A stretch of DNA of 64,000 nt, from assembly GCF_964204865.1 (NCBI RefSeq), contig NC_135258.1, forward strand, positions 20,239,083-20,303,082, written 5' to 3'. The position numbers and the translations under genes are program-made. Shown here in pieces: positions 4,923 to 55,755 of this stretch. Under the pieces are notes generated by a model that worked only from the letters and a program-made list of their open reading frames with translations, had not been told where the DNA came from and searched no databases. Origin of the DNA: Styela clava (lineage: Eukaryota; Chordata; Ascidiacea; Stolidobranchia; Styelidae). Numbering within the stretch: position 1 is the stretch's first letter; the number at the start of each line of letters is the position of its first letter.

Positions 4923-4925
<3 letters not shown>

Positions 4926-16812: not shown

Positions 16813-17095
16813 TTTTAAATGTTTATAAACAAAAGTATTCATATCATTTATACATAACGTTAGTGTAAAAGCTGTCCCTGTTTATTGCGAATAAGTTTCT
16901 CAACTCGAGGAGCAAACAGCACATTGTATTTTGAGATTTCACAGTTTGACTGCAAAGCTATGGATTTCACAACAACGCAAGATCAGGGAAAATCCCCGCT
17001 GAGTTTCAATAGCACGCATTTTCCTCTGATAGTGGAGAACAAAAATAGCAACACATGAAAACTCAACTGTCATTCAAGATTGAGGTTTAGTTAGA
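16813..17095. other. Spacer between hAT elements
   Basis: No feature is recognised in this 280-bp stretch. Confidence 0.4.
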
Positions 17096-17103
17096 GTCTA
17101 GCG

Positions 17104-18226
17104 CAGGGGTGGCCAACCTATGGCGCATGCGCCAAACGTGGCGCATTGCATGATTAGAGGTGGCGCATTGCATCTTTAACCCTTTTCTTGTCAAAATTGT
17201 CCATGATTTTCTCGAAGAGAAAAACGAGCTATCTGAGGAAAGACCACTTTTATGTGATAAAAACTGGCTATTTTGGCATTTTTAGTTGATGTTACTAGCC
17301 ATCTCAATGATCTAAATTTGAGACTGCAAGGCAAAAGCAAACTATTTAAGCTTAGTAAATGACATTATCGCATTCAAGATGAAGTTGAAACTTTTCGTTT
17401 CCCAGTTGGAAAAAGAGGATTTGTCCCAATTTCCTCACATAAAAGAACACCGTAAATGTGCCGCTGGTAATGGCAATTTGGCAATATACACAGAAAAAAT
17501 CAAGTTATTGCAAGAGACATTTGAAAGTCGTTTTCATGATATTTCAAAGAAAGAAGACTCTATACTTGCTTTTATAAACCCATTTTCACTTAGTGAACTA
17601 ACCATAATGAAGATGCCAAGCAATATACAATTGGAACTAATTGACTTGAAAACTCATCCATCATTGAAAATTAAATTTGATGAGCTTTCTTCAGTCCCAA
17701 GTGCATCTGACATGATCAAGTTCTGGCAATCGTTACTCCGTGAAAATTTTCCAGAACTGAGAAAATTTGCCAGAACTGAGAAAATTTGCCCAGGGTTTTA
17801 TATGTCGTTTCGGAACGACATATAGATGTGAACAAACATTTTCTGCCATGAAACTACCGTAATTAAAAGCAAAGCGAGGTCAAGACTTACAGATTTAAAT
17901 TTGAAAAATGCACTGCTCCTCTCAGTAACAAACTTTAACCCCAAGAATAAAAAAACTGGCGAAAGTAAAACAGCAGCAATAGTCTCGTAAAGGCGGTACT
18001 TAAATAAAATTGATCAGTTTTATTTATTATACTTCCTTGCTTAATTTCTATTCATGTGAAGTTGTAAATTGTAAAAACTACATATACGTGTGTTTATATG
18101 TGTGTGTATTATAAATTTATATAATTTCAACAAGAAGCGGGCGTGGGAATACAAGAGATTTACGGCGCAACTGAAACATTATGTTTAAAACGTGGCGCAT
18201 GGTATGTGAAAGGTTGGCCACCCCTG
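17104..18226 (+). mobile_element. hAT element with perfect 8-bp duplication
   Basis: Left end CAGGGGTGGCCAACCTATGG, right end GAAAGGTTGGCCACCCCTG, both followed inward by TGGCGCAT words in inverted orientation. Flanks are GTCTAGCG on both sides (17096-17103 and 18227-18234). It is internally deleted and carries only the C-terminal part of a transposase. Confidence 0.93.
17379..17950 (+). pseudogene. hAT transposase C-terminal remnant (GTF2IRD2/FAM200-like family)
   Basis: The 148-codon frame 17379-17825 carries SQFPHIKEHRK, NIQLELIDLKTHPSLKIKFD and the NFPELRKFA region. This resembles the C-terminal half of the hAT transposases that gave rise to vertebrate GTF2IRD2, ZBED5 and FAM200. Just past it, in another frame, are TYRCEQTFSAMKL (the hATC motif) and, further on, the LTDLNLKNALLLS-like end, interrupted by a frameshift near 17815 and stops. 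A 16-base direct repeat near 17760 has duplicated AGAAAATTTGCC and probably caused one disruption. It is a non-functional remnant of the host element. Confidence 0.75.
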
Positions 18227-30792: not shown

Positions 30793-31145
30793 GATGTGCG
30801 GCGCGGCGGTGTGGCTCAATGGCGCGGCAGTGTGGCTCAACGGGCTAAGCGTCAGGAATACGCTCCCCACCGCACCTCTAATTACTCTGCGTGGGTTCGC
30901 AGGTTCGAATCCCTTGCAGGGATGGTTATGTGCGAGAGGATTGCTGGACTCCTCGCCGTCGTTGGGTGGTTCACGTAACCGCTGGTCGGTTACGGCTTCC
31001 TCCACCACCAAGTCCATGTTTCCGGAAAAAAAAATATATAACTAATCCCATACCCGACTTGGAATGGTAACTGGACGAGAGACCGTGGTTCGCCATATGG
31101 ATAAGCCGTCTTATCGGCTTTCCTCTCCCCCGGGATAAATATGTA
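30793..31145 (+). mobile_element. tRNA-derived SINE, copy 1
   Basis: The head has the layout of a tRNA with pol III boxes: A-box-like GTGGCTCAACGGGCTAAGCG and B-box GGTTCGAATCCC about 70 bp later. The first 25 bp are duplicated (GTGTGGCTCAATGGCGCGGC then GTGTGGCTCAACGGGC). Downstream are a conserved CGCCGTCGTTGGGTGGTTCA block, a short A-rich run and a GGATAAATATGTAAATCC tail. A second copy lies at 47634-47807 on the minus strand. A functional tRNA is unlikely, because the head does not fold as a clean cloverleaf and is repeated with extra sequence. Confidence 0.8.
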
Positions 31146-32845
31146 AATCCTATCCTATGTGAATCCACTTCTTATCTGTAAACTGCCGTGGTCCCGTTTT
31201 GTAGCTGCAGCCAATCGCCAATTCGAGTTCATAATAAATACAAACGATCTTGATCCTATAACCCGTTGATACTTTCGTGCAAATAATTGTAGTAAGTATT
31301 TATTTTGATAAATTACAATCTGATAATCCCATTGAACTCTACGATGCAATCTTGATTGCATGGATCCGACCGTCGTCGGGTGCGGACGTGTCAGCTGGAA
31401 AAGACTAGTGAATGCTACGCGTTATATGTTTCGGTATCTGTATCTCCACTATCTCGTAATATCAACATCAGCAAAGCTCATCCACTCTATTCCGTCACTT
31501 GCTCGTGGGACAGAGAAGCTATATCATTCGTGGAACACGTTGGGAAAACTGGTGTATTCGTGAGTTATAATTTATTATTGGATCAGACATTCGTTATCGA
31601 ATTTAACATTTCCTATAGTACTATCAAAAATAAGTACTGGGTTGTTGGTTGTAAAGGCGTTGAGACTGGCTCACCATGTCATCTGCTAATGTCGACATGG
31701 AATGCCAGTCAACAACATACAAGCGAAGATTGGCTGATGACAATGATGATTCGAGCAATGTAAGCAAAGTTAAGATCAATGTGCAATGTGATACCATCAA
31801 ACAAAACCACCGAGAACCTGCTATTGAACAAACGAACTCTCAACAACAGGTGGATTTCACAAATCTATGTGTGCTAATTAAAGCTACTAAGGCAGGCCGT
31901 CAATTGCGATCATATAATCCGCTCGTTGTATCGGATTCTCTAAAGAAATTAATAGGTGAATGCGAAAGCACCCGTCCATTACCTTCTGGCGACTTGCTCG
32001 TAAAATGCGTCACAACGAAGCAATTTAGCGCCTTAATTGCATGCAATAATCTAGGAAACGCTTCAACGTCGATCCCCGTCAAAACAGAAAAATACCTGAG
32101 TCGAGATTTTTCTGCACAGTGCGTTATCAAACACGTTCCAGAAGATTTGACAGACAATGAGATAGCTTGCTTCCTTGCTAAATTCCGCGTTGTACAAGCA
32201 AAGCGACTAAAACGTAAAACAAGCTCGGGCTTTGAACTTTGCTCTACGGTCTTATTGAATTTCAGCACAAATATTGTGCCTTCTACGGTTGAGATTGGAT
32301 ACCTGAGGTTCAAGACCCATGAATATAACCCACCTCCGATACGGTGTTTCAATTGTAACAGATATGGGCATATTGGTAAACATTGTCGCGGTAAGAAGCG
32401 CTGCACCCGCTGCGGCGGAGAACACGAACAAGCATCATGCAATGCTACACCACATTGTACAAATTGCGGTCTTTCTCATAGTGCTGCATATGCGGGATGT
32501 AAGAGATATAAAGAAGAAGCTCAAATTCAGATTATTCGTAAAAACAAAAATTTAAACTACTCCGACGCTCGCGAATCTATATATCTTGCAAGAAAGAAAG
32601 CATCTGGCCAAGTAAATAAAAATCTTTTTCTGTCCCAGGATAACTTCCCGTCTTTAAAAACAAAGAAAAAACAAGACAGTTGGGTCTCCACACCATTCAT
32701 CAGTCTGGCAGAGAAAACACCACGCCATACCAGAACGCTAGAAACTGGTAGTACTGACATTTCTCTAGATAGCAGTGACCAACATTCCAGGACATCCGAT
32801 CGACAACGACAAGGAGATATCACCCATTCTTTATCTAAATCTGAC

Positions 32846-35800
32846 CAATGACATTAAACAACATGATGCGCAACTCCGGCATTTTTGTCCGAAGATCGTA
32901 TTCGATAGCACGCTCCAATGCACATACTTGACGAGACGAAAACGATCGGATGTGTGCTGCTTTCGAGGCGTAGTACGAATGGTGTTCGTGCCTGCTTTGA
33001 CAGTTGTTGTCGATTTTAATGATATTTTTGAAAGTTGGGGTAAAAAGAAATCGGTAAAAGGTAAGGTGAATACTATTGTTGTATATCACACCCGGGCATC
33101 GCACTGTTAAGTACATGTGGGAAAGCCAGCCTTTGTCATATACTACGAAGTTATTAATTCAGTACGGTACGTAGTTGCCCATTTGCCGAAATTACATATT
33201 TACTTACCCCTTATGGTTTCAAATAGTTCATGCACCTCCAGTTAGATTTTTTTTAATCAGTGAGGATATATACTCATTGTTGATTGCTGCTCATTGTAAC
33301 ATACTATTGCGCATTCACTTTTATTTGCGTATTGAATCAAAGTGTTAACAAGTTCACCTATCATTTCACTCATACCGGTCTATATTGTATAGTCTGATTT
33401 CTCAAGTATTTGGAGCCACGAATGCTTGTAATTTTCTGACTAAACCCTTTTATTAGTTGGTTTATATACCAAATTCAGTAAAATATTTTTTACATAAAAC
33501 ATGAGATATTGGATTTATTAGCTTTTCCATTCTAAATCATATAGACTGCTTCATTTATTCTTAACGAAAATTAATAAATCTCCTCTCTTTCTTCAGATGT
33601 GAAAGTTGTGGACAAACCTGTCTAAGCATTGTGAGACTCTTGCAGTACAAGAGGCAATAGCAGAAATAGTAAGTATATCAATCAAGAAATTAAGCCGACA
33701 TAAAGCAAAACTTTCAACTATTCGTCTAATCTCAATTTCCTATTTTTATTCACAGGACAACTATAGCAGACGGGGAGATATCAGAAGTCTGGCGACATAT
33801 CAGTGACAGTGTGATTCCAAGAAATATAATGTTTGCAATAGAAAAACAACCTATGGGGGCATGCAAAGACATTTGACCCTCCGGTAGAGTTGTTTATGGC
33901 CCCACCCACATCCTGCAGGGCTTGAGGAAAATAACTAAAAATTCCAAAGCGTAAGATTGCATAAGCGGTCTTATTTGTAAAAAGGCACAAAACACGCCAG
34001 ACATACTTAAAACAGCTTTGGAAATGAGGATTACGGGTACCTCACTGCACCTGTGTTATATTTGGTTCATCAACTTTTGGTAGTACTATAGAAGAAATTC
34101 CGGAAGGGGTATAATCATCATTCATGATAAAATACTATCATATATTTTTTGAACAACTTCAATCTAGACCAGGGATCTCAAACTCGCGGCCCCAGAGAAC
34201 TTCCAGTGCGGCCCTCGAACGCTTAACAATAATTGTAATAGTATTTTGGAAGTTTTATTTTATCTAAATGTAATAGATTTTTCAAACCTTCTAAAGTGAA
34301 ATTGATTATTCACACAGAAAACAATTTACTGAAAGTAGTTTTGGAATATTAATTTTTTTTGTCCACATTTTGAACCAATTAAGAATACACATCAAGCTAG
34401 CAAAAGAATACTTGAATAAGACACTTGAGTGATTAAATTAAACGCAAAGTACATGAAGACGGTGGCATTTTCGAAGAAAATGGGAGTTGTAACATTTCTG
34501 CTCTTCACAAAATTCTGAAGCACATTGTTTAATTTGTCATATTTCCATCAAAACAATCAAAAAACACAATAAGCTCAGCAGTCAATATGACAAATTCGAA
34601 GACCAACTTCGAACAGAAAATTTCCATGTGTTTGTATATTAATATAATTATACAACGACTTAGTTACTAAAAATCAATATCAATAATAATTCAAGCAATC
34701 CTATGCCACGCAATGTAGTGCGAAATGTCTTGTCGAAAAAATCTGTCATTTGTTTTTCTACTGATCTATACATGAAATGATAAAAGTAACTTTTTTACAT
34801 TACTGGAATTGATTAAACATTCGTAAAGATCCAGATAAACCCATGATCATGTGGCCTCGTTAGTTAGAGTTGGTACTATAAAATCATTTCAGACTGGCCT
34901 TAGTATGCTGGTGACACAAAAAAGATGCCTAACGCCAGGACAAATGTAATTATTAAAACATTGAGTTTATACTGTAGTATTTTTGTTAATTTTAGGTTCA
35001 TATATTTAGATTAAGTTATTTTTAGTGTATGTATTATTCTTTCCTTATTCAAAGCTTGTTCAAAAATGATTTTGATGGTTGTACATAGAATTTTACGATT
35101 TTTTATAATAAATACTGTAACTTGCAAATGTTGCAATAATAGTGGAATGCAAATATTAATATGTAATTGCATTTGAAATTGAAGAAAATAATAAAACTTA
35201 ATCCAACTGTTTAGTTGCATCACAATATATGTCACAAACTAAAACTATCTTAAAAATATCTTTTAAGTATACATTATCAAAAACTGTTTGCGGCTCTTTT
35301 TACAATTTTCAAAATGCAATGCGGCTCTCGAAAACCCATGAGTTTGACACCACTGATCTATTCTAGACGATTCAAGCATTGCTTTGGGAAATTATATCAC
35401 TTCAATTAAATTGAAATAATCTCGCTATATTAAATACAAAATCGTTGCTATCATAAAGGTAAACCAATTCAGCCACTCGAAATATATTGGCCTTCACAAA
35501 GCAATGGAGGCAAAATTGAGAGTTCATGAGCTATGAACATTTGTTCTTTTCTTTGTCTTGAACTTTTCATACTCCACAGCCCCTATTATTTTTTTTAATT
35601 TTAATTACCATGTGGTGGTCATACATATCTTTAACTTGTATTTTCTGTCATGATGTATTATCTCAATGTGCCAAACTATTAATTAGTGTGCATATTTTGC
35701 TTCCAGATGACATAAATGTATTGTCATGTTTATTACCTCAGCTTGGAGTATTGACAAGAAAAAGGTGCCAGTAAATTAGGTAAAAAAATTTTCAACTCAT

Positions 35801-36645
35801 TGTTATAATCAGAATTCACAATCAATAGGAATTATAAACAGCCAACAATCAGTGAGAATTATATGCGAAATCCCTCAGAATAAATTTGTCTAAAATCGGA
35901 GGAAGGCAAAAAATATAGGTAGTTTCCATCCACACAAGCATTTCAAGAAGACTTGCTCGAGCCAAACTAAATGAGCATCGTCAGGTGATCGGTAAGGCTG
36001 CAAGTTGAATTCAGCCCTGCAACCTCCTGCATAGAAGATAATATTAATTAGTGGGCTATGAGCTAAATTCCTAAATTTAAACAAACCTATTTACGATGCA
36101 TTATGTACCAGCAATGTTACCTACGATTAACTGAATATGTAATATGTCTTATAAATTCACCTACAAAAGCAAGTTCGATAGGTGCAAACTTTGTGTTATG
36201 GAATTGTATCGCAGCACAGTTTTGTATGACACCCTCTTTAAATGAAATTTCAATGATTAAGCGCAAACATTAAAATTACTAACTTTGAACTTTGTCATTA
36301 TCTGCACAATGTTCCACACAAATCTTTCCGCTATCGCGTTTGTAATCTTCTCTGATAAAAAAAAAACGTCTATGATGTCCAGAATTGCTCTTTACAGCTT
36401 GCCTGTTATTCCAGCTTTCCAAGTAAGCAAAACTTCTTAGATATAGAGATTATTTTGTTTCGTTACAGGCGCAAAAAGACAGGTACTACACGTAAAAAAG
36501 ACGCCGAGTAGCAAAAGCGAGCGGAAAACGGACGCGAAAGGCGACGAGAAATACGTGCATTGGTGCGTATCATGAAATATAATGTTTCGCCTGTAGTCTT
36601 ACGGAGTGACGTCAGAGTTGCCTATCATGTTGTTTAATGTCATTG
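32846..36645. mobile_element. 3.8-kb TIR DNA transposon inside LINE ORF1
   Basis: Ends are inverted repeats of about 31 bp. Left CAATGACATTAAACAACATG and its continuation ATGCGCAACTC; right, on the minus strand, the same first 22 bases then AGGCAACTC. The first 22 bases match exactly and two or three mismatches follow. ATCTGAC flanks both sides (32839-32845 and 36646-36652). No intact transposase is seen. A few segments look exon-like (33597-33668 with TTCAG and GTAAGT; a basic stretch KKTGTTRKKDAE at about 36475) but contain stops. The 7-8-bp duplication and CA start would fit P-like or hAT-like elements; the family is unresolved. Confidence 0.88.
34170..35355. mobile_element. hAT element nested in the 3.8-kb transposon
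   Basis: Starts CAGGGATCTCAAACTCGCGG and ends ATGAGTTTGACACCACTG. The inner GCGGCCC at the left mirrors TGCGGCTC at the right. The flanks ATCTAGAC and ATCTATTC agree at six of eight positions. The interior is AT-rich and has no transposase. It is the innermost member of the nest. Confidence 0.8.
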
Positions 36646-36889
36646 ATCTGACCAATCACAGGCAGAGCGTCTTGATATAAACGAAAATGTGCCAAAACAA
36701 AGACCACAAATCACTGTAGATCCCATTCAATTTTTCGCATTTTTAACTGAGGTTATACAAAACACTATAGTTGCTAGTTCGAAAGGAGAAAGTGTTGACA
36801 TATCTTCCATAATATCCATGTCAGCCGGAAAACAATTTGGATTTGATTTAAACAGTGTAACGCTTCAGTACATGGCTTCTGACGAAATT

Positions 36890-36894
36890 TAATG
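36890..36894 (+). other. TAATG stop-start overlap between LINE ORF1 and ORF2
   Basis: The ORF1 stop TAA and the ORF2 start ATG share one base (TAATG). Overlaps of this type are known in non-LTR elements that translate ORF2 by termination-reinitiation. The layout is seen directly; its use here is inferred. Confidence 0.75.
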
Positions 36895-39800
36895 GCGGAA
36901 CTTGAGGAAATTTCTTTTTGCGTACTACAGTGGAACTGTAGGAGCATATACAGAAAATTATACGAATTTAAGAAGTATATATATAATTTAGAAAAGAAAC
37001 CAGATATAATCCTACTACAAGAAACTCATTTAATATCAAAGTACTCACCTTCTTTAAAAGGATATTCAATAATAAGAAAAGATAGATCAATAACAGGAGG
37101 TGGCCTGGCTATTATAGTTAGAAACTCGTTACCTTACAGAGAGATCTCTTGGAAAGCACCATCACCTGTTGAAGTACAATGCATAGAAGTACATGAACAT
37201 AGATTTGTCAATGTATATATACCTCCGGGAAATATTTTGAATCAAAGCCATTTCAAATTCATCCGAGACTTTCCATGTAGATCAATGTTCTTTGGAGATT
37301 TTAATGCACATCATCGGATGTGGATCAGCTCCATGACAAATTCACGGGGTAATATGCTCATGGATGCCGTAGAAGAAAATAATTTAGTAATACTTAACAC
37401 TTCCCAACCAACAAGAATGAACATATCCATGAGAGCTATAAATAGGTGGTCTCTATTGGACCTATCGATTGCTACGCCTGATATTGCTTCGAAATGTCGC
37501 GCGGTTGTCACTGACCAGTTCATCGGGAGCGACCACTGCATAATTTTAACCTATCTTCGAGTAAAGTTCTCTCATAAAATACAATTTTCATCCTGGTCGC
37601 TGAAGAAAGCTGATTGGAATAAATTTCAATTAAAATGCATAGACACAATCAATGATTTACTGATATCAGACGACGTAGAAGTTTTTAGTAATAACATATC
37701 ACATCGCTTGACTGAAGCGGCTCAACAATCCATCCCTTATACCAAAAATATCAAAAACAAATCGCCAGTTCCTTGGTGGTCATCGGAATGTGATAAAGCT
37801 GTTAGATTAAAAAGAGCATCATATTTAAAAATGAAAAGAACGTGGAATCGGAGTGACATAATAGAATTTAAAAAGCGCAGAGCGGAATGTAGACGGATAA
37901 TTCTAAAAACCAAAAGAAATAGTTGGATACAATATTGTAATTCGTTGAATAAGCAGAGTAGTCTGTCAACAGTTTGGAATGTTGTCCGAAGCTTCACCGG
38001 CACTTCCTGTCATAATAATATACCTACCATACATGACGCCGCTGATAAAATTTTAACAACTGACTTGGATAAGGCTAATATGCTGGGATCTGTGTTTAAC
38101 TCGGTTAGTAGTACTGATAACTACTGCCAAGGATTTATTTCGCGAAAGGCAGAATTTGAAAGGAACACTTTTAGATCTATTTCAATCGAAAGCAACTTTT
38201 CTAGCGAAATTAATACAAATTTTTCAATAGAAGAGTTAAAGTTGGCATTGGCATCGAAAAAGAATACGTCCCCTGGTGAAGACGGAATATGTTACGACAT
38301 GATCAAACACCTTCCCGACATTTCGATGAAGACACTTTTGTCATTTTATAATAAATCTTGGGCGTCTAGCTATGTTCCAAGCAAATGGTTGCATTCCACT
38401 ATAATACCCATACTTAAATCTAATAAACCGGCTACCTCGCCAAATTCCTACAGACCTATAGCTTTAACCAGTCATCTTTGTAAAATTATGGAAACTATGA
38501 TAGCAAAAAGACTACAATGGTTTTTAACTAAAAATAATATATTAAGTGATGATCAAGCAGGTTTTCGTCGTGGAAGATCTACAACTGACAACATATTATG
38601 TTTGCACGATGAAGTGTATAAAGCAATCAATAACAAAAGACATGTCGTAGCCGTTTTCTTAGATATCCAACGCGCTTACGATATGATATGGCGTAGTGGA
38701 CTCATCTCGAAGTTACACGCACTCGGAATTCGAGGACGTATGCTCGTGTGGATAAAATCTTTCCTTCGAAAAAGAACTTTTCAAGTTCGTATCGGATCCA
38801 CTCTATCCAGAATATTCGAACAAGAAAATGGAATTGTGCAAGGCAGTGTGATCAGTCCCATTCTTTTTTCATTAATGATTAATGATTTACCCGCTAACAT
38901 AGCGGCATCAGTATGTAAATTTTTTGCAGACGACGGAGCAATCTGGGAATCGGGCCTACAAGTTAGGAAAATAGAAGCTTCAATCCAATCATCTTTAGAC
39001 GTGATAAGTACATGGTGTCAACAGTGGGGTTTCACAATTTCAAAAGCGAAGTCAACAGCCATGGTTTTTACCAAGGCACGACGAATACACAATATTAGAT
39101 TGAAAATGAGTGGACAAGTGCTTCCAGTAAAATCAGAGTTTAAATACCTGGGAATTATTTTTGATAAACGTCTGTCTTACAAACATCATATTAACTACAT
39201 ATATGAGAAATCTCTGAAAAGAATAAACATTTTAAGGCTTCTTACGGGTACATCATGGGGCGCCTCCAAGGAAGCCCTCATCGCTTTATTTCGATCAATA
39301 ATAAAACCTATTTATGAATATGGAATGGAAGCTTACTTTTTTGCTCCTAATTCCTACCTGAAAAAGATATACTTAATACAAAGCCAGTGTTTAAGAATAT
39401 GCTGTGGCGCTATGAAAAGTACCTCCATTTTAAGTTTATTAGCAGCTACGGGAGAATTACCTTTACATATCCGACATCTGCAGCTTTGTCTCAATTATAA
39501 ATTGAACCTCATCTCTATAAATAATCATCCTCTAAAACATATAATTGGAGAATCTTGGCAGGAATACTTTCCCGATTCACCTCTTTCCAAAACATTTAAC
39601 ATGTTGACAAGTTCGAATATTTTCAACAATTTGGAAGTATCGAGATATCCAGTGTATTACGATGCTCCATGGACGATAGAAAAACCAGATGTTGATTGTG
39701 AACTCGTCAATATACTAAAACCGGTTGCAACAAACAATATCAAGGTTGTGAGTAATGATTATATTCAATCTATCTTTGAACATTATACATATGTTTACAC

Positions 39801-40620
39801 TGACGGATCTAAAACAGAGGAAGGAGTTGGCTGTTCTTTTTACGTGCTACAGAGTGAAACTAATATGACCTTTTCATTACCACGAACCCAAACGTCATAC
39901 ACTGCCGAACTTTATGCAATAAGCATGGCAATGGAATGGATAAGCATAAATCGCCCTTCCTCAGTACTGATTCTTTCGGATTGTCTTGGCGCACTTAAAA
40001 GTATCGAATGTTTCAATAGTTCATCTCACCATCTGGTTGCGCGAATAATTTGTATACTTATTAATTTGAGAAAAGAAGGTATCAACGTCAAATATATATG
40101 GATTCCAGGTCATGTGGGCATATTGGGAAATGAAAGAGCGGATCAGCTTGCAAGATCGTGCATTGGAGACGCCGCTATCGACAATATCCCACATACAGTA
40201 CAAGAGGCAAAAACTGTAATTAGAAGTATAAGTTTGAATAAATGGAAATTTGAATACCAATCGTCGACCATCGCATCACATTTCAAAATGTTCATTCCGA
40301 CAGCAGATTCATATCCGAACCTTTCTCTAACGCGATATCCCCAATCAATTATATTCAGACTTCAGACTGGACACTGCAGGCTCTCCCACCATCTTTTTAA
40401 AATAGGCTGTCACCCACATGGCGAATGCGATACTTGCTCTGTACAAGAAACTGTAGCCCATTTTTTACTATTTTGTCCAAAGTATATTAATGAAAGAAAT
40501 ATTTTAATAAATCATGCACGTAGTTTAAATATTCCATTTCGAATTAAATACCTACTGTCTGATCCAAAAGTTATTCCTTATGTAATTAGGTTTGTTTATT
40601 CAACCCGCAGGTTAATATAG
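36892..40620 (+). CDS. LINE ORF2: AP endonuclease, reverse transcriptase, RNase H
   Basis: An uninterrupted 1,242-residue polyprotein. Residues 1-220 are an APE-type endonuclease with QWNCRS (N15), QETH (E44), GDFNAH (D136, N138), LLDLS (D190) and SDH (213-215), all catalytic positions present. The reverse transcriptase (about 480-780) has SYRPIALTS, AGFRRGRSTTDN, FLDIQRAYD and the catalytic FADD (678-681, Phe in place of the usual Tyr). RNase H begins near residue 965 with YTDGS (D971), then TAEL, LSDCLGAL and GHVGILGNERADQLA. The C-terminus has the CDTCSVQETVAHFLLFC zinc motif. It nicks target DNA and performs target-primed reverse transcription. The frame is intact, but its partner ORF1 is interrupted, so this copy is unlikely to mobilise itself. 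Confidence 0.96.
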   Translation: MAELEEISFCVLQWNCRSIYRKLYEFKKYIYNLEKKPDIILLQETHLISKYSPSLKGYSIIRKDRSITGGGLAIIVRNSLPYREISWKAPSPVEVQCIEVHEHRFVNVYIPPGNILNQSHFKFIRDFPCRSMFFGDFNAHHRMWISSMTNSRGNMLMDAVEENNLVILNTSQPTRMNISMRAINRWSLLDLSIATPDIASKCRAVVTDQFIGSDHCIILTYLRVKFSHKIQFSSWSLKKADWNKFQLKCIDTINDLLISDDVEVFSNNISHRLTEAAQQSIPYTKNIKNKSPVPWWSSECDKAVRLKRASYLKMKRTWNRSDIIEFKKRRAECRRIILKTKRNSWIQYCNSLNKQSSLSTVWNVVRSFTGTSCHNNIPTIHDAADKILTTDLDKANMLGSVFNSVSSTDNYCQGFISRKAEFERNTFRSISIESNFSSEINTNFSIEELKLALASKKNTSPGEDGICYDMIKHLPDISMKTLLSFYNKSWASSYVPSKWLHSTIIPILKSNKPATSPNSYRPIALTSHLCKIMETMIAKRLQWFLTKNNILSDDQAGFRRGRSTTDNILCLHDEVYKAINNKRHVVAVFLDIQRAYDMIWRSGLISKLHALGIRGRMLVWIKSFLRKRTFQVRIGSTLSRIFEQENGIVQGSVISPILFSLMINDLPANIAASVCKFFADDGAIWESGLQVRKIEASIQSSLDVISTWCQQWGFTISKAKSTAMVFTKARRIHNIRLKMSGQVLPVKSEFKYLGIIFDKRLSYKHHINYIYEKSLKRINILRLLTGTSWGASKEALIALFRSIIKPIYEYGMEAYFFAPNSYLKKIYLIQSQCLRICCGAMKSTSILSLLAATGELPLHIRHLQLCLNYKLNLISINNHPLKHIIGESWQEYFPDSPLSKTFNMLTSSNIFNNLEVSRYPVYYDAPWTIEKPDVDCELVNILKPVATNNIKVVSNDYIQSIFEHYTYVYTDGSKTEEGVGCSFYVLQSETNMTFSLPRTQTSYTAELYAISMAMEWISINRPSSVLILSDCLGALKSIECFNSSSHHLVARIICILINLRKEGINVKYIWIPGHVGILGNERADQLARSCIGDAAIDNIPHTVQEAKTVIRSISLNKWKFEYQSSTIASHFKMFIPTADSYPNLSLTRYPQSIIFRLQTGHCRLSHHLFKIGCHPHGECDTCSVQETVAHFLLFCPKYINERNILINHARSLNIPFRIKYLLSDPKVIPYVIRFVYSTRRLI

Positions 40621-41388
40621 ACATAACTTATATACGTATATAATTTTCCGCGTGGCTTATATTTTACACTAATTCCGTATCGTAGGGAATTTTGAAATTT
40701 ATTTTGAAGTAGCGTGTTACTTACACTATGCTGTACGGCTTTTGTGGACCTGTTTTTTGTCAGAAAATTATTTTCAGTCTGGCGCACATAATCCTGGTAA
40801 TTAAAAGCGCCATAACTTTTAATAATAATAATAATAAAGCTCATCCACTGGAATTAAAGAAGTTTATGGATAAAAGATTGGATTTAAAGGTAAATGGTGG
40901 ACGATCTGTTACGAGTATACTGCGAGGTTTCGATCCTTTTATGAATCTAGTCGTGGATGATGGAACAGAGCGTAGAAAAGATGGGATGACTGCACCTGTT
41001 GGAATGGCTGAATGGTGGTTGTTCGTGGAAATTCGATATTGGTGTTGGAGGCATTGGAACGGATACAATGATTTTAAACTGAACTAATCGAAAACGACAA
41101 AAGAACCCAACACCCCAATCCATGATTTGTGCATAGACTGCTATGGAACATCCAATCCATTTAACGAGCTTGTTTTCTAGTAAAAAAAATTGGTAACGGT
41201 GTTACTTTTGCAATATAATTGAACTAGGCCCACAACAGCATCATTTTTCGGCAGCGAGTGTTCTTTAATCCATATATCTATAGGAAAAGCACATACACGT
41301 CTCACATTTTAATTTGAATTTATAAGATATTGCCCGATGTCACATCGTGTTTTTGTTTTTTTTATTGTGTTCTGACTGTTTTTGGGGG

Positions 41389-41530
41389 ACGGGCACGTTC
41401 TTGTACGTATTTAACTTTATTATTAAGTTATGCCCGTCCTCCAGGTCCTCTGTATTTTGTTTGTCCCTTTGTTGTTGTTTTGTGTTTTGTTAGTATCAGA
41501 GTGACCAAATAAAATTGATTGATTGATTGA
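41389..41530 (+). mobile_element. LINE 3'-end fragment with (TTGA)n tail
   Basis: AAGTTATGCCCGTCCTCCAG..CTGTATTTTGTTTGT..CAGAGTGACCAAATAAAATT, then GATTGATTGATTGA. A related, inverted copy is at 47405-47585. Short units ending in a (TTGA)n tail are typical 5'-truncated inserts of L2/CR1-like LINEs; the family is inferred. The 41072-41388 stretch before it is plain AT-rich sequence. Confidence 0.65.
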
Positions 41531-41586
41531 ATGGATAAACATTGCGCATTATAATTGGAAATGACATTTCCCTTTTGACCCTCGTA

Positions 41587-41999
41587 AGAGTGGTTTCGCG
41601 AGTTGGCACCTGTAAAATGGGGTATTTATTTCAAACCATAATTCTGATTCATAGCATTCAACATTGTGTTTTTTAAAAGTACCGGTGCAGAATTTTAGCT
41701 CAGTTTATCACAGCTATTTATACACTAATTTTTGATTACTGCAATTAAACTGAAACCCCTAAGAAGACAAAGTGATCATTGAATTATTTGATATATGTTC
41801 AAATATGCGAAACACAACTGAAAACTAATGAATAGAATTCAAAAACGTGAAAATGAGACACAGTTAATGTTTAGGACCACGCTTGGTAATCTGTCTGAGC
41901 AACGATTAACGTACCTGAGCGAGAAAACTATCTGAGCGGATGCGAAACCACGTCTCTTTTTGCATCTTGCTGATTGGCCAATGTCACGAAGTAAACGAG
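41587..41999 (+). repeat. Dispersed 0.4-kb repeat, copy 2
   Basis: Same-orientation counterpart of 11895-12296. It lies about 60 bp after the LINE tail fragment and outside any hAT unit I can define, so the family moves or was copied independently of the nested hAT element. No coding frame. Confidence 0.85.
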
Positions 42000-42949
42000 G
42001 AAGTCGATATAGTTTGTGTTTTGTAATATTTATGAAATAAATATTTTTTGGGTATTCCCTGCAGAGTAAATTCAAAGATTGAAGTCATTATTTGATGGAG
42101 CAATGAAATACCTTTTCGTGTAACAATACCAGCCAATCTTTGAAAATCCTGGCCAAATATTACCCTCTGGAAAAGTTAAGGTCAAATGTTACCACATTAG
42201 GCGCGTCTCCAAATTCCGATGTGTAAACGGTTGCGAAGGAAGCTGCAGTCGTTGAGGTTTCCGACCGTCATTTTTTTCTAAAGGCTGAGCACACGTAACA
42301 TGTAGGAAAGCGATACCTCAGTGCTTTAACCACAATCTGTCCCAGATATTAAGTGTAAAGTTGTCGTTGTATCAGTATTTTTTATTAAACATTAACCTTC
42401 TGTAGTAGTATTTTACGGTACCGATATTCCGTCAACAATGTCAAATAGATAACATACGGTACAACATTTCAAAATTAATTTCAAGGCATTGTGACGAGGC
42501 TGTAACGAAGCAACCGTTAGGTCATAGCCTATTAACCCTCGAATTTAATGAGCAGTGAGAGAAATTCAGTTCAAATTCAATACCATATGCCCTCAACCTC
42601 TAAACCAACTCGAAAAACAAAAAAAAAGTGAGAAATGGTGACACAGCCTTTTTTTGTTGCGAAAAGAATTGTTTAAACTCAGGAATTTATCCCCGCCTCC
42701 TTTTTGCTTCTGCTCTTTTAAATGGTGTTTACTGATATAGGCTATACTTTCGATGAATCTTAATGCTGTAATGTCGATATCCTTTTTGTACTGCCTTTGC
42801 ATATCCTGCTTGTATAAAGTATAAAGAGAGGTTTGTCAAACTTTATTTTTATTTTTTTTTAAATTACATGTAGTACATTTTTACAGAAAATTAAATTAAA
42901 CTGCTGTACTGAAGCCCTTTCAAACCTTTGTGTATACCACTGTACCACA
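42000..42949. other. 5' flank of the IFT80 gene
   Basis: No other gene is recognised. A pyrimidine run with ATTTTTACAG ending near 42885 could be the acceptor of a 5' UTR intron about 65 bp before the IFT80 ATG. TTACC/CTGGCC words at 42120-42200 suggest a repeat fragment. Confidence 0.4.
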
Positions 42950-45247
42950 ATGAGGTTTAAAATAAGCATTCCAAAAGATCAACCATCTCAAGAAGTTATA
43001 TCTTGTGTGGCTTGGAGCTCAGCTAACGAAGTTTTGTCATGTGGTGATGATCATCAAGTTATGAAATGGAACCTTGTCAGTGGAGAGACACAAGTTCTGA
43101 CCAAGTTTACTAATGATGTTTATTGTACACATATGCATCGTTTTCCAACTTCAGGACAAGGCGGAAAAAAACAAGGACAGGGCGAACTTTTTGCAGTTAC
43201 AAGCACAGAGGGTAAATTCAGGTTAATGGCAAGCTCTGGGAGAATTGACAAAACTATAGAGGCACACACTGGTGCTGTTATCAGCGGGAAGTGGAGTCAT
43301 GATGGTACAGCTTTTGTTACAGTAGGTGAAGATGGTCAGATAAAAATATGGTCGAGATCTGGTATGTTGCGTTCCACTTTATCACAGTTTTCGTCTCCAG
43401 TTTATGACGTTGCATGGAGTCCAGAATGTGATCATTTGTTATATACAGCTGGAAAACAGCTAGTTATAAAATCTCTGCAACCTTCAGCAAAACCAGTAAC
43501 ATGGAAAGGCCATGATGAGCTGATTCTGAGGGTGGATTGGAATCCAGTGAGTGGATTAATTCTTTCTGGAGGGGAAGATTGTAAATACAAAGTATGGGAT
43601 AGTTATGGTCGTCCTATATATACCAGTATTACTCATGACTACCCAATCACGTCATTGTCCTGGTCTCCTGATGGAGAATTGTTTGCTATTGGCTCATATA
43701 ATACCCTGCGTCTTTGTGATAAATCGGGTTGGTCTCATAGTTTAGAGAAGCCAGCGACTGGAAGCATATTCAATGTAATTTGGAGCAATGATGGTACTCA
43801 AGTTGCGTGTGCATGTGCAGCAGGAAAAGTTCTTTTCGCTCATGTGATTGAACAACGTCTTGAGTGGAAAAAATTCGAAGTGAGTGTTGTGAGTCGCAAA
43901 ACAATTGAAGTACGTGATGTCACGAATAATGCACATGAAGTTTTGGACATGAAGGATCGCATCATCAAAGTGTCACTGGGATATGATCATTTGGTTGTTG
44001 TGACATCATCACAGTGTCATGTCTACCACACCACAAACTTCAATACTCCAGTTATATTTGATCTCAAAGAAGGTACTGTTTCTATGATTACTCAATCAGA
44101 AAAACATTTCATGCTAACAGAAGCAACAGGAATTACAATATATTCATATGAAGGACGTACTGTGTGCAGTCCTAAACTGCCTCCATCTGTGCGGCCCAGT
44201 CTTCTTAGCAACCACATTTTGTCATTGAGTAAGGATGCATTTGCAATTCGAGACAACAATGAGCACCGTGCTGTAACTGTTTTTGAAACCTCATCTGGTA
44301 AACCTCTCAATGATAACAAACCTATTTTACACAAACTTGAAGTGCAACAACTTTGTCTGAGCCAATGTGGTTCAATGAAAGAAAGATTTCTTGCTGTGAT
44401 AGACAAGAATAGGGATTTATACTTGACACCTATCAGAAAACTTGAAGCTCATTACAATACAACAAAGCTGTCAACAATGATGAGATCCATATGTTGGAAT
44501 GACAACACAAACATGCTCTGTGGTGTTCAAGAAAACAAACTTATTGTATGGTATTACCCATCTGTTGCAACAGTAGATAAGGATATTATGGCTCGAACCG
44601 TATTTGAAAAGGACATCGCTGATTGTGGGAAGAATCCCGAACTTCGGGCATTCATTGGTAATACAGCTGTTATACGACAAGCTGCAGGAGCAACAACCAC
44701 CATTGGCATTCCTCCTTATCCATCTATTCTTCATCAGCTCATGTCATCTGATCGCTCTGAAGAAGCATTGAGACTTTGTCGCTTTGTCAAAGAAACATCA
44801 CTCTGGGCATGCCTCGCGGCCATGTCAGTTCAAAGGAAAGATCTTTTTACAGCTGAAATGGCATATGCTGCTATAGGTGAAGCTGATAAGGTGGAATATC
44901 TGCATCATATCCAGAATATCAAGTCAAAAGAAGGGAGAATGGGGGAGATTTCTCTTTTTTGTGGCAACGTACCAGATGCAGAGGCAACTTTTATTGCAGC
45001 TGGCTTAATGTACCGAGCTATCAAGCTGAATGTTGATCTATTTCGATGGGAACGTGCACTGGAACTTGCAACAAAGCATAAAACCCATGTGGACACAGTT
45101 CTTGGTTTCAGAGGACTGTATTTACAAAAGTTAGGGAAGCCAGAATCAATCGCAGACTTCAAAAATATGGCAAACAAAGTGGAAGTGAATTGGCAAAATA
45201 TCAACAATAAAATTGAAATGGAGTTAGAAAAAGAGGCAGGGAATTAA
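42950..45247 (+). CDS. IFT80: Intraflagellar transport protein 80, single exon
   Basis: A 765-residue frame that lines up with vertebrate IFT80 (about 777 residues) from the MRFKISI start to the C-terminal helices. The N-terminal part is WD40 repeats (GHxx..WD-type strands such as VTVGEDGQIKIWS, LSGGEDCKYKVWDSYGRPIY and LSWSPDGELFAIGS), with a second propeller to about residue 570. The C-terminal part is helical repeats with LCRFVKETSLWACLAAM, YAAIGEADKVEYL and HVDTVLGFRGLYL. IFT80 is a peripheral subunit of the IFT-B complex that carries cargo into cilia and is needed for cilium assembly. The start is the ATG in CCACAATGAGG, and the protein begins where the family begins. There are no introns, unlike the multi-exon vertebrate gene. 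An AATAAA at 45665 could end the transcript. The frame is undamaged, so it is either the working gene with lost introns or a functional retrocopy. Confidence 0.96.
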   Translation: MRFKISIPKDQPSQEVISCVAWSSANEVLSCGDDHQVMKWNLVSGETQVLTKFTNDVYCTHMHRFPTSGQGGKKQGQGELFAVTSTEGKFRLMASSGRIDKTIEAHTGAVISGKWSHDGTAFVTVGEDGQIKIWSRSGMLRSTLSQFSSPVYDVAWSPECDHLLYTAGKQLVIKSLQPSAKPVTWKGHDELILRVDWNPVSGLILSGGEDCKYKVWDSYGRPIYTSITHDYPITSLSWSPDGELFAIGSYNTLRLCDKSGWSHSLEKPATGSIFNVIWSNDGTQVACACAAGKVLFAHVIEQRLEWKKFEVSVVSRKTIEVRDVTNNAHEVLDMKDRIIKVSLGYDHLVVVTSSQCHVYHTTNFNTPVIFDLKEGTVSMITQSEKHFMLTEATGITIYSYEGRTVCSPKLPPSVRPSLLSNHILSLSKDAFAIRDNNEHRAVTVFETSSGKPLNDNKPILHKLEVQQLCLSQCGSMKERFLAVIDKNRDLYLTPIRKLEAHYNTTKLSTMMRSICWNDNTNMLCGVQENKLIVWYYPSVATVDKDIMARTVFEKDIADCGKNPELRAFIGNTAVIRQAAGATTTIGIPPYPSILHQLMSSDRSEEALRLCRFVKETSLWACLAAMSVQRKDLFTAEMAYAAIGEADKVEYLHHIQNIKSKEGRMGEISLFCGNVPDAEATFIAAGLMYRAIKLNVDLFRWERALELATKHKTHVDTVLGFRGLYLQKLGKPESIADFKNMANKVEVNWQNINNKIEMELEKEAGN

Positions 45248-47404: not shown

Positions 47405-47585
47405 GGTACTTTTATTCAATCAATCATTTATTTTGGTTCTCTGAAATAAACAATACAAAAAGTAAACAGACAAACAAAATGCAGAGATACCTGGGAGACG
47501 GGCATAACTTGAAAAAGTCAAAAAGCGTACAATGTATACTTTGGGTACTAAAACGCGATTTACAGTCGGGCAATACTTTGGAAGC
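47405..47585 (-). mobile_element. LINE 3'-end fragment (minus strand)
   Basis: Read on the minus strand it gives AAGTTATGCCCGTCTCCCAG..CTGCATTTTGTTTGT..CAGAGAACCAAAATAAATGA and a TTGATTGA tail, matching 41389-41530. It immediately follows the minus-strand SINE head at 47634-47807, so the two could form one composite unit. Confidence 0.65.
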
Positions 47586-47633: not shown

Positions 47634-47807
47634 CAGCGACCAGCGGTTACGTGAACCACCCAACGACGGCGAGGAGTCCAGCAATCCTTTCGCACATAAC
47701 CATCCCTGCATGGGATTCGAACCTGCGAACCCATGCAGAGTAATTACAGGTGCGGTGGCGAGCGTATTCCTAACGCTCAGCCCGTTGAGCCACACCGCCG
47801 CGCCGAT
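47634..47807 (-). mobile_element. tRNA-derived SINE, copy 2 (minus strand)
   Basis: On the minus strand it reads GCGCGGCGGTGTGGCTCAAC, GGGCTGAGCG, GGTTCGAATCCC and GACGGCGAGG-type sequence in the same order as the copy at 30793. It has a single, undoubled head. The similarity stops at ACCGCTGGTCG, after which the sequence leads into the LINE 3'-end fragment. Confidence 0.8.
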
Positions 47808-49712: not shown

Positions 49713-49733
49713 AATATATATATATATATATAA
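49713..49733. repeat. (TA)n tract at left end of element copy B
   Basis: A short TA run next to the CTCTATTACGG end of the element, paired with the TA run at 55756-55775. Confidence 0.75.
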
Positions 49734-50779
49734 CTCTATTACGGTAGTTAAACGGACCTGCCATAATTGCAGTACTTAAGCGGACGTCGTTCCTGTGTCC
49801 GTATCATTGTTTTTAAATACGTACTTGGAGAGCGCGAGAGCCGTTGACAACTACGGAGAAAAAGAGTCAACACAATCCTCTCGATAACAGATATAAAATT
49901 TTTGTCCGCTTAATTCGTCCACTTAATTCAGACCACCAAATGTTTTAGCCTATTTCGGCACTAAGCCGGACCCCTCTTATATGTCGCCCTGGATGTCTAC
50001 ATAAATGATGCTGCTTTTATTTTATTACGCATTTTAAAGCGTATGACCTCGCTTTAATTTCCGATGGATTCGAACCATTTAGCATTATTTATCACAGAAA
50101 ATAGCATTTTTTTTTCAATGTTCAGTATTTTGTGCAAGGGAGATGCACTGTGTTTGGTGTAGGAAATAATCTTCCATGTCAAAAAATACTCAAAATGCAA
50201 CGTGAAGGTAGACAAATCGAAACAAATTGATTCAAACGTAATATATATTTGAAACTGAGAAATACACAGAGCATATCACAAATGTTCGCCTATTCCAACC
50301 CTATGGTGTAACATTTAGATTGAACAGATGCTATGTTGTGAGTGTCAAGATATCAATACCAAGTCAAAATTATTCCATTCAAATAATATTGATAAACTTT
50401 GCGCAAAATATATCTCAAAAATCCGCATATCTATATGGCTAGTTATATAAGCGTGACATATAATTGAAAAACAAAATTTTGAAATGCCATACATATTGAG
50501 AAACAATACACAAAATATATTTCAAATGTATCACCAATTTGATTGCTAAAGTGTGAAATATTATTTTAAAAAGGAAGTGTGGTATATAATAGTAAAATAA
50601 AAAATGAAAGTGCTAATATTATTGAGAAACAATAAAAGAAAATTATATATACGCAGAAGGAAACCGCAGAATGAAATTCATGTCATTAATGAAGACAAAA
50701 ATCACACAAATTCGATTTCAAATGTTCATCTATTCGGTCACTCAAATGTGGCACGTAATTGAAAAATGAACATCAGCCC

Positions 50780-52560
50780 TATTGAGAAACATTACACAAA
50801 ATATATCTCAAATGTCCACTTATCCGGCATTTAAGTGTGGCAACAATTAATAACAATTAAAATAAAAATTCTGAAATCATATTGAGAAATATTACACAAA
50901 GTATATCTCAAATGTCCACCTATCCGGCCACACTCTGAAATCATATTGAGAAATATTACACAAAGTATATCTCAAATGTCCACCTATCCGGCCACCTAAG
51001 TGTGGCATAAAGCATTAAAATGAAAATTCTGAAATCATATTGAGAAACATTACACAAAGTATATCTCAAATGTCCACCTATCCGGCCACCTAAGTGTGGC
51101 ATAAAGCATTAAAATGAAAATTCTGAAATCATATTGAGAAATATTACACAAAATATATTTCAAATGTCCACCTATCCGGCCACCTAAATGTGGCATACAA
51201 GAATTAAAATGAAAATTTTGAAATCATATTGAGAAATATCACACAAAGTATCTAAGTGTGGCATAAAGCATTAAAATGAAAACTCTGAAATCATATTGAG
51301 AAATATTACACAAAGTATATCTCAAATGTCCACCTATCCGGCCACCTAAGTGTGGCATAAAGCATTAAAATGAAAATTCTGAAATCATATTGAGAAATAT
51401 TACACAAAATATATTTCAAATGTCCACCTATCCGGCCACCTAAATGTGGCATACAAGAATTAAAATTAAAATTTTGAAATAATATTGAGAAATATCACAC
51501 AAAGTATCTAAGTGTGGCATAAAGCATTAAAATGAAAACTCTGAAATCCTATTGAGAAATATTACACAAAGTATATCTCAAATGTCCACCTATCCGGCCA
51601 CCTAAGTGTGGCATAAAACATTAAAATGAAAACTCTGAAATCATATTGAGCAATATTACACAAAGTATATCTTAAATGTCCACCTATCCGGCCACCTAGG
51701 TGTGGCATAAAGCATTAAAATGAAAATTCTGAAATCATATTGAGAAATATTACACAAAATATATTTTGAATGTCCACCTATCCGGCCACCTAAGTGTGGC
51801 ATACAAGAATTGAAATAAAAATTCTGAATTCATATTGAGAAATATCACAAACTTTGTCTCAAATGTCCACCTATCCGGCCACCTAAGTGTGGCATAAAAC
51901 AATAAAATGAAAATTCTGGAATCATATTGAGAAACATTACACGAAGTATATCTCAAATGTCCACCTATCCGGCCACCTAAGTGTGGCATAAAACAATAAA
52001 ATGAAAATTCTGGAATCATATTGAGAAACATTTCACAAAGTATATCTCAAATGTCCACCTATCCGGCCACCTAAGTGTGGTATAAAACATTAAAATGAAA
52101 ATTCCAAAATCGTAATGAGAAACATTATGCGAAGTATAAATCAAATGTCCACCTATCCGGCCACCTAAGTGTGGCATACAAGAATTGAAATGAAAATTCT
52201 TGAATCATATTGAGAAACATTACACAAAGTATATCTCAAATGTCCACCTATCCGGCCACCTAAGTGTGGCATACAAGGATTGAAATGAAAAATCTGAAAT
52301 CATATTGAGAAACATTACACAAAGTATATCTCAAATGTTCACCTATCCGGCCACCTAGGTGTGGCATAAAACAATCACAATGAAAATTCTGAAATCATAT
52401 TGAGAAACATTACACAAAGTATATCTCAAATGTCTACCTATCCGGCCACCTAAGTGTGGCATAAAACGATCACAATGAAAATTCTGAAATGATATTGAGG
52501 AACATTACACAAAATATATATCTCAAATGTCCGAATACCCGACTACCTAAGTGTAGCATA
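50780..52560 (-). repeat. 95-bp minisatellite, inverted copy
   Basis: The same unit as at 7590-9340 on the opposite strand: CAAATGTCCACCTATCCGGC, CACCTAAGTGTGGCAT and CATATTGAGAAATATTACAC. Several shortened units occur (around 50930, 51245 and 51495, where the CTATCCGG part is lost), so this array has rearranged differently from copy A. Confidence 0.92.
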
Positions 52561-53754
52561 CAACTATTGAAACCAATTCCTGAAATCATATTGAGAAATC
52601 TTACACAAAATATATCTCAAATGTCAAGTTATTCGACCGCTTTAGTGTGTGAAATATAACTAAAATACGAAATTTCGAATACTAATCATATTTTGATGTT
52701 GTGGAAAATTGCTCAAAATTTATCTCAAATGTTCACCTATCCGATAACTTGAGAGTGACAAATATTTTAAAACAAAATTTTGAAACCATATTGAGGAACA
52801 ATACAGAAAATATATCGCAAATCGTCATTTACTCAGCTACGTAAGTGTGTCATGTAAATGCAAAATGATATTTTGGAATGACAATAATATTAGGAAGCAT
52901 TCAAAAAAAATTTCAACCATCCGACCATTTCAGAAGGTATGTAATTAAAACACGAAATTCTCTAAAAAAATATCGAGAACCATTACACACAACATATCTC
53001 AAATGTTCAATTAAGTGACGTTTTCAGTGGGGCCTATAAATGCGAAATGAAATTTTGCCATGTCAACTAAAATGAGAAACATTACACCAATTATAACTCA
53101 AATGTCTACCTATCAAGGCGCGCTTAAGTATAGCAGTGATTATACAGTCAACCATACAAGCGATCAACATGAAATTATTCAACCCCGATATCAATTTAGA
53201 ATCGTTGCACAATTTATTTAAAATTTTTGCACCAACTCGGAATACAAAAACATGATTGTTATTTTGAATTTATAATTAAATAGTAAAAATGTATGCCAAG
53301 TATGTATACGAATGTGGATATGCCCACTAGATTAAGTTGTTGAGGAGAGACAAAATTATGTGCTCACTGCCGGTTCATCTTCATGAATTATACAGAGATG
53401 TCTTAAAGCTTTACAATAAACTTCTCGCAAGATATACAAAGCCGTGCAATTATTTTTCTTTTCGTCGTTTCTTTTCTGGTTCACGTTTATTTAGAAGGTT
53501 TATTTCGAATTGATTTACAGCCCTTTTCTTTTCCGTATATATGATTTTCTTTTAAGTCACTTACATTGCTTATTGAAAGTGATTCTGAAGATGGTGCGGT
53601 ATAGTCTGTTGACTAATCTGAAACTTTGGTCAAAAATACATGCATAAGTCACAAACAGTGTTTTAGTCCAATTCAGAATTACGGTACTCTTGATTGACCG
53701 AACAAACGAAGTGTTTGAAATGGGGAATTGCATTATTACTCAAATAAAACAGTG

Positions 53755-53990
53755 GGGGCTCCCGAAGTATGCGAACCAAGATGGCGGACATCGGAATGTA
53801 ATATGTGTACTAGGTTAGGATTAGTCCATAATTTTAGGTATAAATACTACGGGAGGCTCTTGGCTAGTCTTCGAACTGATAATAGGACTAAAATAAGGAA
53901 AACTGGAAAAAAATTATCGCCTAACCCTAACCTGTTACCCATGTTACGTTCCGATGTCCGCCATCTTGGTTCGCATACTTCGGGAGCACC
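53755..53990. mobile_element. 236-bp MITE inserted in element copy B
   Basis: Starts GGGGCTCCCGAAGTATGCGA and ends CTTCGGGAGCACC, with arms that pair over most of their length (AAGATGGCGGACATCGGAAT at the left, CCGATGTCCGCCATCTTGGT at the right). The target AAACAGTG is duplicated exactly (53747-53754 and 53991-53998). Copy A keeps the related uninserted site near 6400-6415. The telomere-like GGTTAGG/CCTAACC words lie within the arms. There is no coding capacity. Confidence 0.93.
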
Positions 53991-54692
53991 AAACAGTGTT
54001 TTTAAACGGAGCACTACAATTATTCGTAGATAGCCGCGCTATTTGTGATGGGCTACAATTGATATTATGATTTGGTTTATTACCATTCATTGGTATCAAT
54101 TTGAGATACCGTATTTAATTAAAAACAAGCATAGCAAACTAATTTAATCACCTCCTGGCACAGCGTTCTCCGAATCACTACCCGCATTTCCGTCTGCCAA
54201 GTTCTGAAACGTAGGCCATCTCGTTGGCGAGTCACTTACATGTGAACAAAAAATACAGCCCAGTAAATAGCTAGATGAGGATGGTAAAATAACACAGGGA
54301 TATGTGCCAAATCACAAAACAAAATTGCTAGCAATGCAATTCTTTAAAACTGTTTTCCGAAGATAAAATATTCTAATCTAATATGAAGCGGTGTATTAGA
54401 TATTTTTATTTATACAAAGCTATACAAACCTATATAAAGTGGCGTCAACCACTCGCTTCTCGTATCTCCTTCTGTTTCGAGAAAAATTTGAATTCATTGA
54501 ATTTTCACAATCTTCGTTTGTATTGTCATCTGGATTTAGAAATCCTTCTGAATTACACACTCTTACAAACGCAAACCCAGTCGTAGCAATATTTTGATGG
54601 TCAGATCAGAACTACGACCAGTAAAAGCATAACAGTATCAGTAGTCTTTCGATAATCAGGAATAAGTGAAAAATCTCAACAACAAAAATATA

Positions 54693-54955
54693 TGCTAATG
54701 ATTTGGTTTCTGCAAGACTAACCACTTATCCTTCTTCTATGCTTTTGTGTCGGCGGATCCGTATGCATATAGTGCAAGGATGCTGTAGCAAGAGTAAAGA
54801 TAACTATCCTACAGTCCTAAGTGATTCAAGAGTCTTGATGCACACTAACACAATTATATTTCTGTAACGTTTCGTCTGACCAAGATCAGACTCCTTCAGA
54901 CATACATAGTAAATATAATTGTGTTAGTGTGCAGCAAGACTCTTGAATCACTTAG
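54693..54955 (-). mobile_element. 263-bp hairpin retroposon with hammerhead-like core
   Basis: Flanked by AACAAAAATATA on both sides (54681-54692 and 54956-54967); copy A has the single uninserted site. About half of the unit is a long stem (AAGTGATTCAAGAGTCTTG..CACACTAACACAATTATATT, 54818-54862, with its inverted partner at 54911-54953). The loop on the minus strand carries CTGAAGGAGTCTGA, a six-base loop, then TCAGACGAAACG. That order (CUGA-x-GA, stem, GAAAC) is like a hammerhead ribozyme core with one extra base. It has no open frame. The 12-bp duplication suggests insertion by a retrotransposon machinery. Confidence 0.65.
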
Positions 54956-55755
54956 AACAAAAATATAGTAGCCCTATTATTAAAAATCGATATGACTAAT
55001 CACCTTATCCTATGAGTGATGATTTCCAGCAGCATTCTTCGGTGACGTTGAAAACCTTGTTTCAAGTTATTATGACTCGACTTCAACTCACTGGGTAATT
55101 GATAACACCTGACACAAAAGACTTGGATCGCTTCTCCAAACACAACTGTTCTATTTTATCTAAATTTCTGCAATCACGCACTCATGAAGATCCCGATCCC
55201 CTCACGGCGCCCAGGTTACTTGCGAACAAAACGGCAAACGTGGTAGGTAAAGTTCTTGGCAAACCCGACAGTTTTACTATTGCGACACAAAGCCTCTTTA
55301 GTACGGAGTTGTGAATTGAGGTCCTTTTCAGTTTATTGAGCTTATATTGCAAAAAACAGAACGAACGATCTTCATGTTTTGCCTGGTTATTGTATCAAAA
55401 TTATCAATCCTACTCTCCAAAAATCGTAAAGACATATACCGAAAAATTAAAAGATTTTCGCGTAAACAAAATGTCCGCTTAGTGTACGAAAATTATACCC
55501 GTTGATTATAAACCAGCAGAACTACTGTCCCCTTAAAGTTGGCGAAAATATGCAGATATTTTAAAAATATTGAAAGAACATATTGTTTTTGATACTGTTT
55601 TATCAGAGAAAAAGAGATTTCAGCAAAAAATAGCAAAACGTTTTAATTATGGAACGTGGAATAATTAAGCGGACAGGAAAATGTCTACCCAATTTTTCCG
55701 TCTACATAACTGTCGCTTTTTTAGCACGGTATGTCTACTTAACTACCGTATTAGA

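Follow-up and report, generated by a model that had tools for sequence, protein, structure and literature searches.

How did a copy of the Sm-G gene in the ascidian Styela clava come to be parted by 9.35 kb of mobile DNA? We analysed a 64 kb window of contig NC_135258.1 (assembly GCF_964204865.1, forward-strand positions 20,239,083 to 20,303,082; 35.9% G+C), and all coordinates given here are positions within this window. Four layers of sequence lie one inside the next: the Sm-G copy contains a long interspersed nuclear element (LINE), by its plan of the I type; the LINE contains an element bounded by terminal inverted repeats (TIRs); and the TIR element contains a hAT-like unit. The locus is very probably a dead Sm-G copy in which mobile elements are nested. 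Such a nest is a clean stratigraphic record, with three insertion layers whose junctions can be read inside a recognisable gene copy, and each layer implies an empty site to look for in other individuals. It is well preserved but ordinary, since its mobile elements are all of known kinds. The locus adds one I-type LINE with an open ORF2 (second open reading frame) and leaves the general understanding of such elements unchanged.

What identifies the outermost layer as Sm-G, and what marks the LINE as an insertion into it? The following features define the junction.

31467..31486, plus strand: 5' part of the Sm-G pseudogene, codons 1 to 6 plus two bases of codon 7, the final 14 bases forming the LINE target site
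31473..31486, plus strand: left target-site duplication of the LINE, AAAGCTCATCCACT
31487..40835, plus strand: LINE from its 5' end to its TAA tail, 9.35 kb including the TIR element
40820..40835, plus strand: 3' tail of the LINE, TAA five times over (40820-40834) followed by T, or six units when the AA that opens the right duplication is included
40836..40849, plus strand: right target-site duplication of the LINE, AAAGCTCATCCACT
40850..41071, plus strand: remaining coding part of the Sm-G pseudogene, in which eight additional bases at 41007-41014 shift the frame

Joined straight to 40850-41071, the bases 31467-31486 translate into Sm-G protein sequence. An earlier, sequence-only reading of this DNA had placed Sm-G codons on both sides of a LINE at 31487-40835 and had named Sm-G similarity in these flanks as its test. 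The similarity is clear. Pfam matches LSM in the open reading frame (ORF) at 40713-41087 (E 9.3e-11), and the top PDB matches of 40833-41087 are Sm-G chains (8.6e-20 and 3.1e-19). The duplication that the same reading reported is exact: AAAGCTCATCCACT occurs just twice in the window, directly bordering the LINE, and the two copies are identical at 14/14 positions. From base composition and with fixed edges, a match of this length has a chance of about 1e-8, a figure that serves as a guide only, the edges having been set with the repeats in view. The duplication is best given as 12-14 bp, since the AA with which the right copy begins might instead belong to the tail, as the last two letters of a sixth TAA unit.

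The Sm-G coding part is continuous and free of introns, and a second Sm-G stretch was sought in the window and not found. At the position of the start codon (M1) stands ATC, so that the initiator is lost, and after the residues PVGM the eight surplus bases intervene before a clear Sm-G C terminus resumes in another frame. Because of the ATC and the frameshifting bases, the copy would count as a pseudogene had the LINE never entered it; these lesions may be older or younger than the LINE insertion. The bases 41001-41014 read GGAATGGCTGAATG, in which the eight surplus bases partly copy their left neighbour, as in small duplications or transposon footprints. A footprint of transposon excision was considered for these bases, and the repetition is too imperfect to decide.

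Of what kind is the LINE? Its coding parts, of which the first is interrupted by the TIR element, are as follows.

31676..32845, plus strand: first part of LINE ORF1, 390 codons with three CCHC motifs
36653..36892, plus strand: last part of LINE ORF1, 79 codons and the stop TAA at 36890-36892
36892..40620, plus strand: LINE ORF2, open for 1242 codons, with endonuclease, reverse transcriptase (RT; FADD), RNase H and a C-terminal CCHC

Four Pfam families covering endonuclease, RT and RNase H (PF14529, PF03372, PF00078 and PF00075) match ORF2, each above its curated cut-off, and its top PDB match is the LINE-1 ORF2 protein (6.8e-24). A late CCHC, CDTCSVQETVAHFLLFC, was located by pattern match at residue 1179. 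In ORF1, pattern matching places CCHC motifs at residues 224, 243 and 261; it tells against our assignment that these come from the pattern only, as the zinc-knuckle part of ORF1 matches no Pfam family at E 0.01. The I factor is described as having an ORF1 with three C-terminal Cys-His motifs and an ORF2 that combines APE, RT and RNase H with a Cys-His domain at its C terminus (PMC2881922), and the I element and its clade are given TAA-repeat ends (PMC3747384). Two ORFs, three Cys-His motifs in ORF1 and one at the C-terminal end of ORF2, the three enzymatic domains and the TAA tail are shared between our LINE and the Drosophila I factor or I-clade LINEs, a class set here by plan. Searches of viral and prokaryotic records, where few relatives of ORF2 are to be expected, gave none in viral_contigs, and in genome_contigs 28 stretches fitted a pattern with 0 confirmed. 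The 5' part of the LINE found no match among plasmids.

The ORF1 stop overlaps the ORF2 start (36892-36894) as TAATG, which may be a difference from the I factor. A paper on SART1 reportedly names UAAUG stop-start coupling of a LINE in its title, and our LINE may use such coupling too, judging by the overlap.

Within ORF1 lies the next layer.

32846..36645, no strand assigned: TIR element, 3800 bp, without recognisable transposase
32846..32876, plus strand: left TIR, 31 bp
36615..36645, minus strand: right TIR, 31 bp
32839..32845, plus strand: left ATCTGAC, 7-bp duplication
36646..36652, plus strand: right ATCTGAC, 7-bp duplication

With this element set aside, ORF1 runs open through the join for 469 codons, from the start at 31676 to the stop that lies beyond the element; the split of ORF1 by a 3.8-kb element, as first proposed from the letters alone, is thereby upheld. 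So are its 31-bp inverted ends and duplicated ATCTGAC: the two TIRs match at 29/31 positions, and the duplication is exact at 7/7, for which the chance is about 1e-4 (base composition, fixed edges), again as a guide only. The TIR tip reads CAATGACATTAAACAACATGAT. A search with 22 bp of the tip, allowing up to three mismatches, picked out the two element ends alone in the window and had no match in 100 shuffles. As to subterminal inverted repeats, the two sides of the element have one 9-mer in common.

What sort of transposon is it? Pfam recognised no transposase in any of the 12/12 frames outside the hAT unit, which is a point against a cut-and-paste element; because of this lack the element is non-autonomous or worn. 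Weak matches below cut-off in the scan of the TIR element and hAT unit (GSG-1, E 0.064; SMIM43, E 0.036) were taken as chance. TIRs of 31 bp together with a 7-bp duplication would suit the P superfamily (7- or 8-bp duplications, TIRs of about 31 bp), and the duplication length is closest to the Galileo sort; these features are not diagnostic. The Dada superfamily, too, makes duplications of 6-7 bp. Of the P-type elements themselves, Galileo makes 7-bp duplications (PMC2775673) and Anopheles P elements have TIRs of 27-31 bp (PMC1562414), so that our element resembles Galileo in its duplication and falls within the P range in the length of its TIRs. Against this, the same papers give 8-bp duplications for the P elements of Anopheles and D. 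melanogaster (PMC1562414), and for Galileo a consensus GTAGTAC, unlike ATCTGAC, and TIRs that are long and internally repetitive where ours have 31 bp (PMC2775673). No THAP or P transposase was matched in the 12/12 frames, though a non-autonomous copy would lack one. We regard membership of the P superfamily as rather unlikely, and as a lead only.

The tip of the element, CAATGAC, is 6/7 alike to CAATCAC, the sequence just beyond the target. That the element stands for an undescribed family of DNA transposons with 7-bp duplications, with a preference for targets that adjoin a partial match to its own tip, strikes us as highly improbable.

The innermost layer is the hAT-like unit.

34170..35355, no strand assigned: hAT-like unit, 1186 bp, with inverted ends CAGGGATCTCAAACTC and CAGTGGTGTCAAACTC
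34162..34169, plus strand: left octamer, ATCTAGAC
35356..35368, plus strand: right flank, ATCTATTCTAGAC, read either as the octamer ATCTATTC (6/8) or as ATCTA+TTCTA+GAC

How firm is its assignment? The 16-bp ends match at 13/16 positions and bear the tips CAGGG and CAGTG; CAGNG is the tip of hAT elements. Searched with up to two mismatches, the tip pattern occurs in the window only at the two ends of the unit, yet 3/100 shuffles also gave two matches, and the tips alone would be modest evidence. Two further points weigh against a hAT insertion. The flanking octamers, described beforehand as near-matching, are accurately so described: ATCTAGAC and ATCTATTC are not identical and agree at 6/8 positions (chance about 0.6%, fixed edges). 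An exact ATCTAGAC that received a near-tandem insertion of 5 bp would yield the right flank ATCTATTCTAGAC with an 8/8 octamer, an explanation made after the fact and with no control. Secondly, Pfam matched no hAT transposase in the 6/32 pieces of the unit that were scanned (the 32 being the listed pieces of at least 25 aa, and frame +1 lying outside the scan). Like non-autonomous hAT elements, then, the unit has CAGNG tips, short inverted ends and no transposase match in those pieces; unlike them, it has octamers at 6/8 unless the 5-bp insertion is allowed. That it belongs to hAT is likely, though short of proof. One piece of the unit, HFCSSQNSEAHCLICHISIKTIKKHN..., resembles by eye a worn version of the BED-type zinc finger in hAT transposases, and Pfam gave no match for it.

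Elsewhere in the window, ORFs at 11162-17825 look like fragments of a disrupted hAT-type transposase; four of them were scanned with Pfam, and 13842-14741 alone matched (DUF4371, 7.1e-16). The stretches 11893-12296 and 41585-42000, the latter lying downstream of the Sm-G copy, are 79% alike.

In which order did the layers arise? Because of containment, each host sequence must have been there before its insert arrived: the Sm-G copy before entry of the LINE, and the LINE sequence before entry of the TIR element. The first reading had ordered the events as retrocopy, LINE, DNA element and hAT. Entry of the LINE into the Sm-G copy is solid, and so is entry of the TIR element into the LINE, save for the unlikely case that an already split LINE was copied in trans; the placing of the hAT unit last does not follow in the same way. 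An intronless extra Sm-G copy, probably from reverse-transcribed mRNA, would have been first at the site. A full-length I-type LINE would then have inserted itself there through target-primed reverse transcription, so that 12-14 bp of Sm-G codons were duplicated and a TAA-repeat end was left. Next, a cut-and-paste TIR element would have landed in LINE ORF1, making a 7-bp duplication, dividing the frame in two and presumably ending the autonomy of this LINE copy. The hAT-like unit would have entered the TIR element, whether at this locus or in a copy that preceded this one.

Why is the last step not forced? The TIR element could move with the hAT unit already inside, so that the unit need not have arrived at this locus after the TIR element. 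The unit may have entered a TIR-element copy elsewhere, and the composite may have jumped into the LINE as one piece, with the last two events reversed; we think this possible, if somewhat doubtful. Having no recognised transposase in its own frames, the TIR element would have been moved in trans whatever its cargo, and its outer TIRs are well kept. The imperfect hAT octamers, set beside the exact ATCTGAC and LINE duplications, fit an older hAT entry weakly. A single imperfect octamer pair is, however, weak evidence of age, and the comparison is based on one copy of the element. In a comparison of the window with itself, the LINE, the TIR element and the hAT unit each appear without a second copy among the matches listed, which include six of those starting at 7000-9500 and 50000-53000.

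Was the Sm-G copy, as first named, a retrocopy? The absence of introns stands; a clear poly(A) tail and a duplication of the retrocopy's own do not accompany it. Reverse transcription of Sm-G mRNA is likely, though unproven, on the single ground of intronlessness. Several observations count against it. Poly(A) after the Sm-G stop is not clear, the only candidate being an A8 run near 41182-41189, about 110 bp past the stop. No retrocopy duplication was found: the longest exact word common to 31150-31472 and 41070-41420 has 8 bp, a length reached by 270/300 shuffles and hence nothing above chance. The duplication may have decayed or may sit beyond the compared stretches. Lastly, IFT80 is encoded in a single ORF about 1.9 kb downstream of the Sm-G copy. 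With IFT80 in one ORF nearby, genes without introns may be no rarity in this genome, and intronlessness becomes a weaker sign of retroposition. Compared with processed pseudogenes, the Sm-G copy is like them in its intron-free coding part, lost start codon and frameshift, and unlike them in that neither a clear poly(A) tail nor a flanking duplication accompanies it.

Could the copy instead be a DNA-level duplicate, or a former gene, intronless in this lineage, that was later broken by substitutions, the frameshift and the LINE? The unclear poly(A), the missing duplication and the single-ORF IFT80 all speak for it. Sm-G is essential, however, so that a broken copy implies another Sm-G elsewhere, and animal Sm-G genes commonly bear introns. 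We consider such an origin improbable, and an mRNA origin remains our preferred account of the Sm-G copy.

The IFT80 coding region occupies one open frame at 42863-45247 and matches IFT80 chains, which we take to be of Chlamydomonas type, over query residues 30-792. The IFT80 gene is intron-rich in animals. The ORF may represent a functional retrogene or else point to intron loss; no obvious poly(A) tail was seen downstream of it.

Besides IFT80, the window bears several further mobile elements. Just downstream of the Sm-G copy, 41330-41530 is a probable 5'-truncated 3' end of a LINE of a different family, with a GATT-repeat tail; within it, 41401-41526 and the inverted stretch 47416-47532 are 77% alike. 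Neither Rfam, at gathering scores, nor ARAGORN in bacterial mode gave a match in the window. A 168-bp repeat forms an inverted pair (30821-30988 and 47637-47804, 95% alike) with a tRNA-like GGTTCGAATCC box; it is probably a short interspersed nuclear element, its tRNA origin being judged by eye only, as ARAGORN found none. Two copies of an element of about 5.6-6 kb lie in opposite orientation at 4905-10505 and 49714-55773 and are 87-94% alike in their three longest pieces. Both sit in (TA)n runs with inverted tips around TAATACGGTAGTT, and each bears an array of satellite units of about 95 bp (7640-9340 and 50934-52625).

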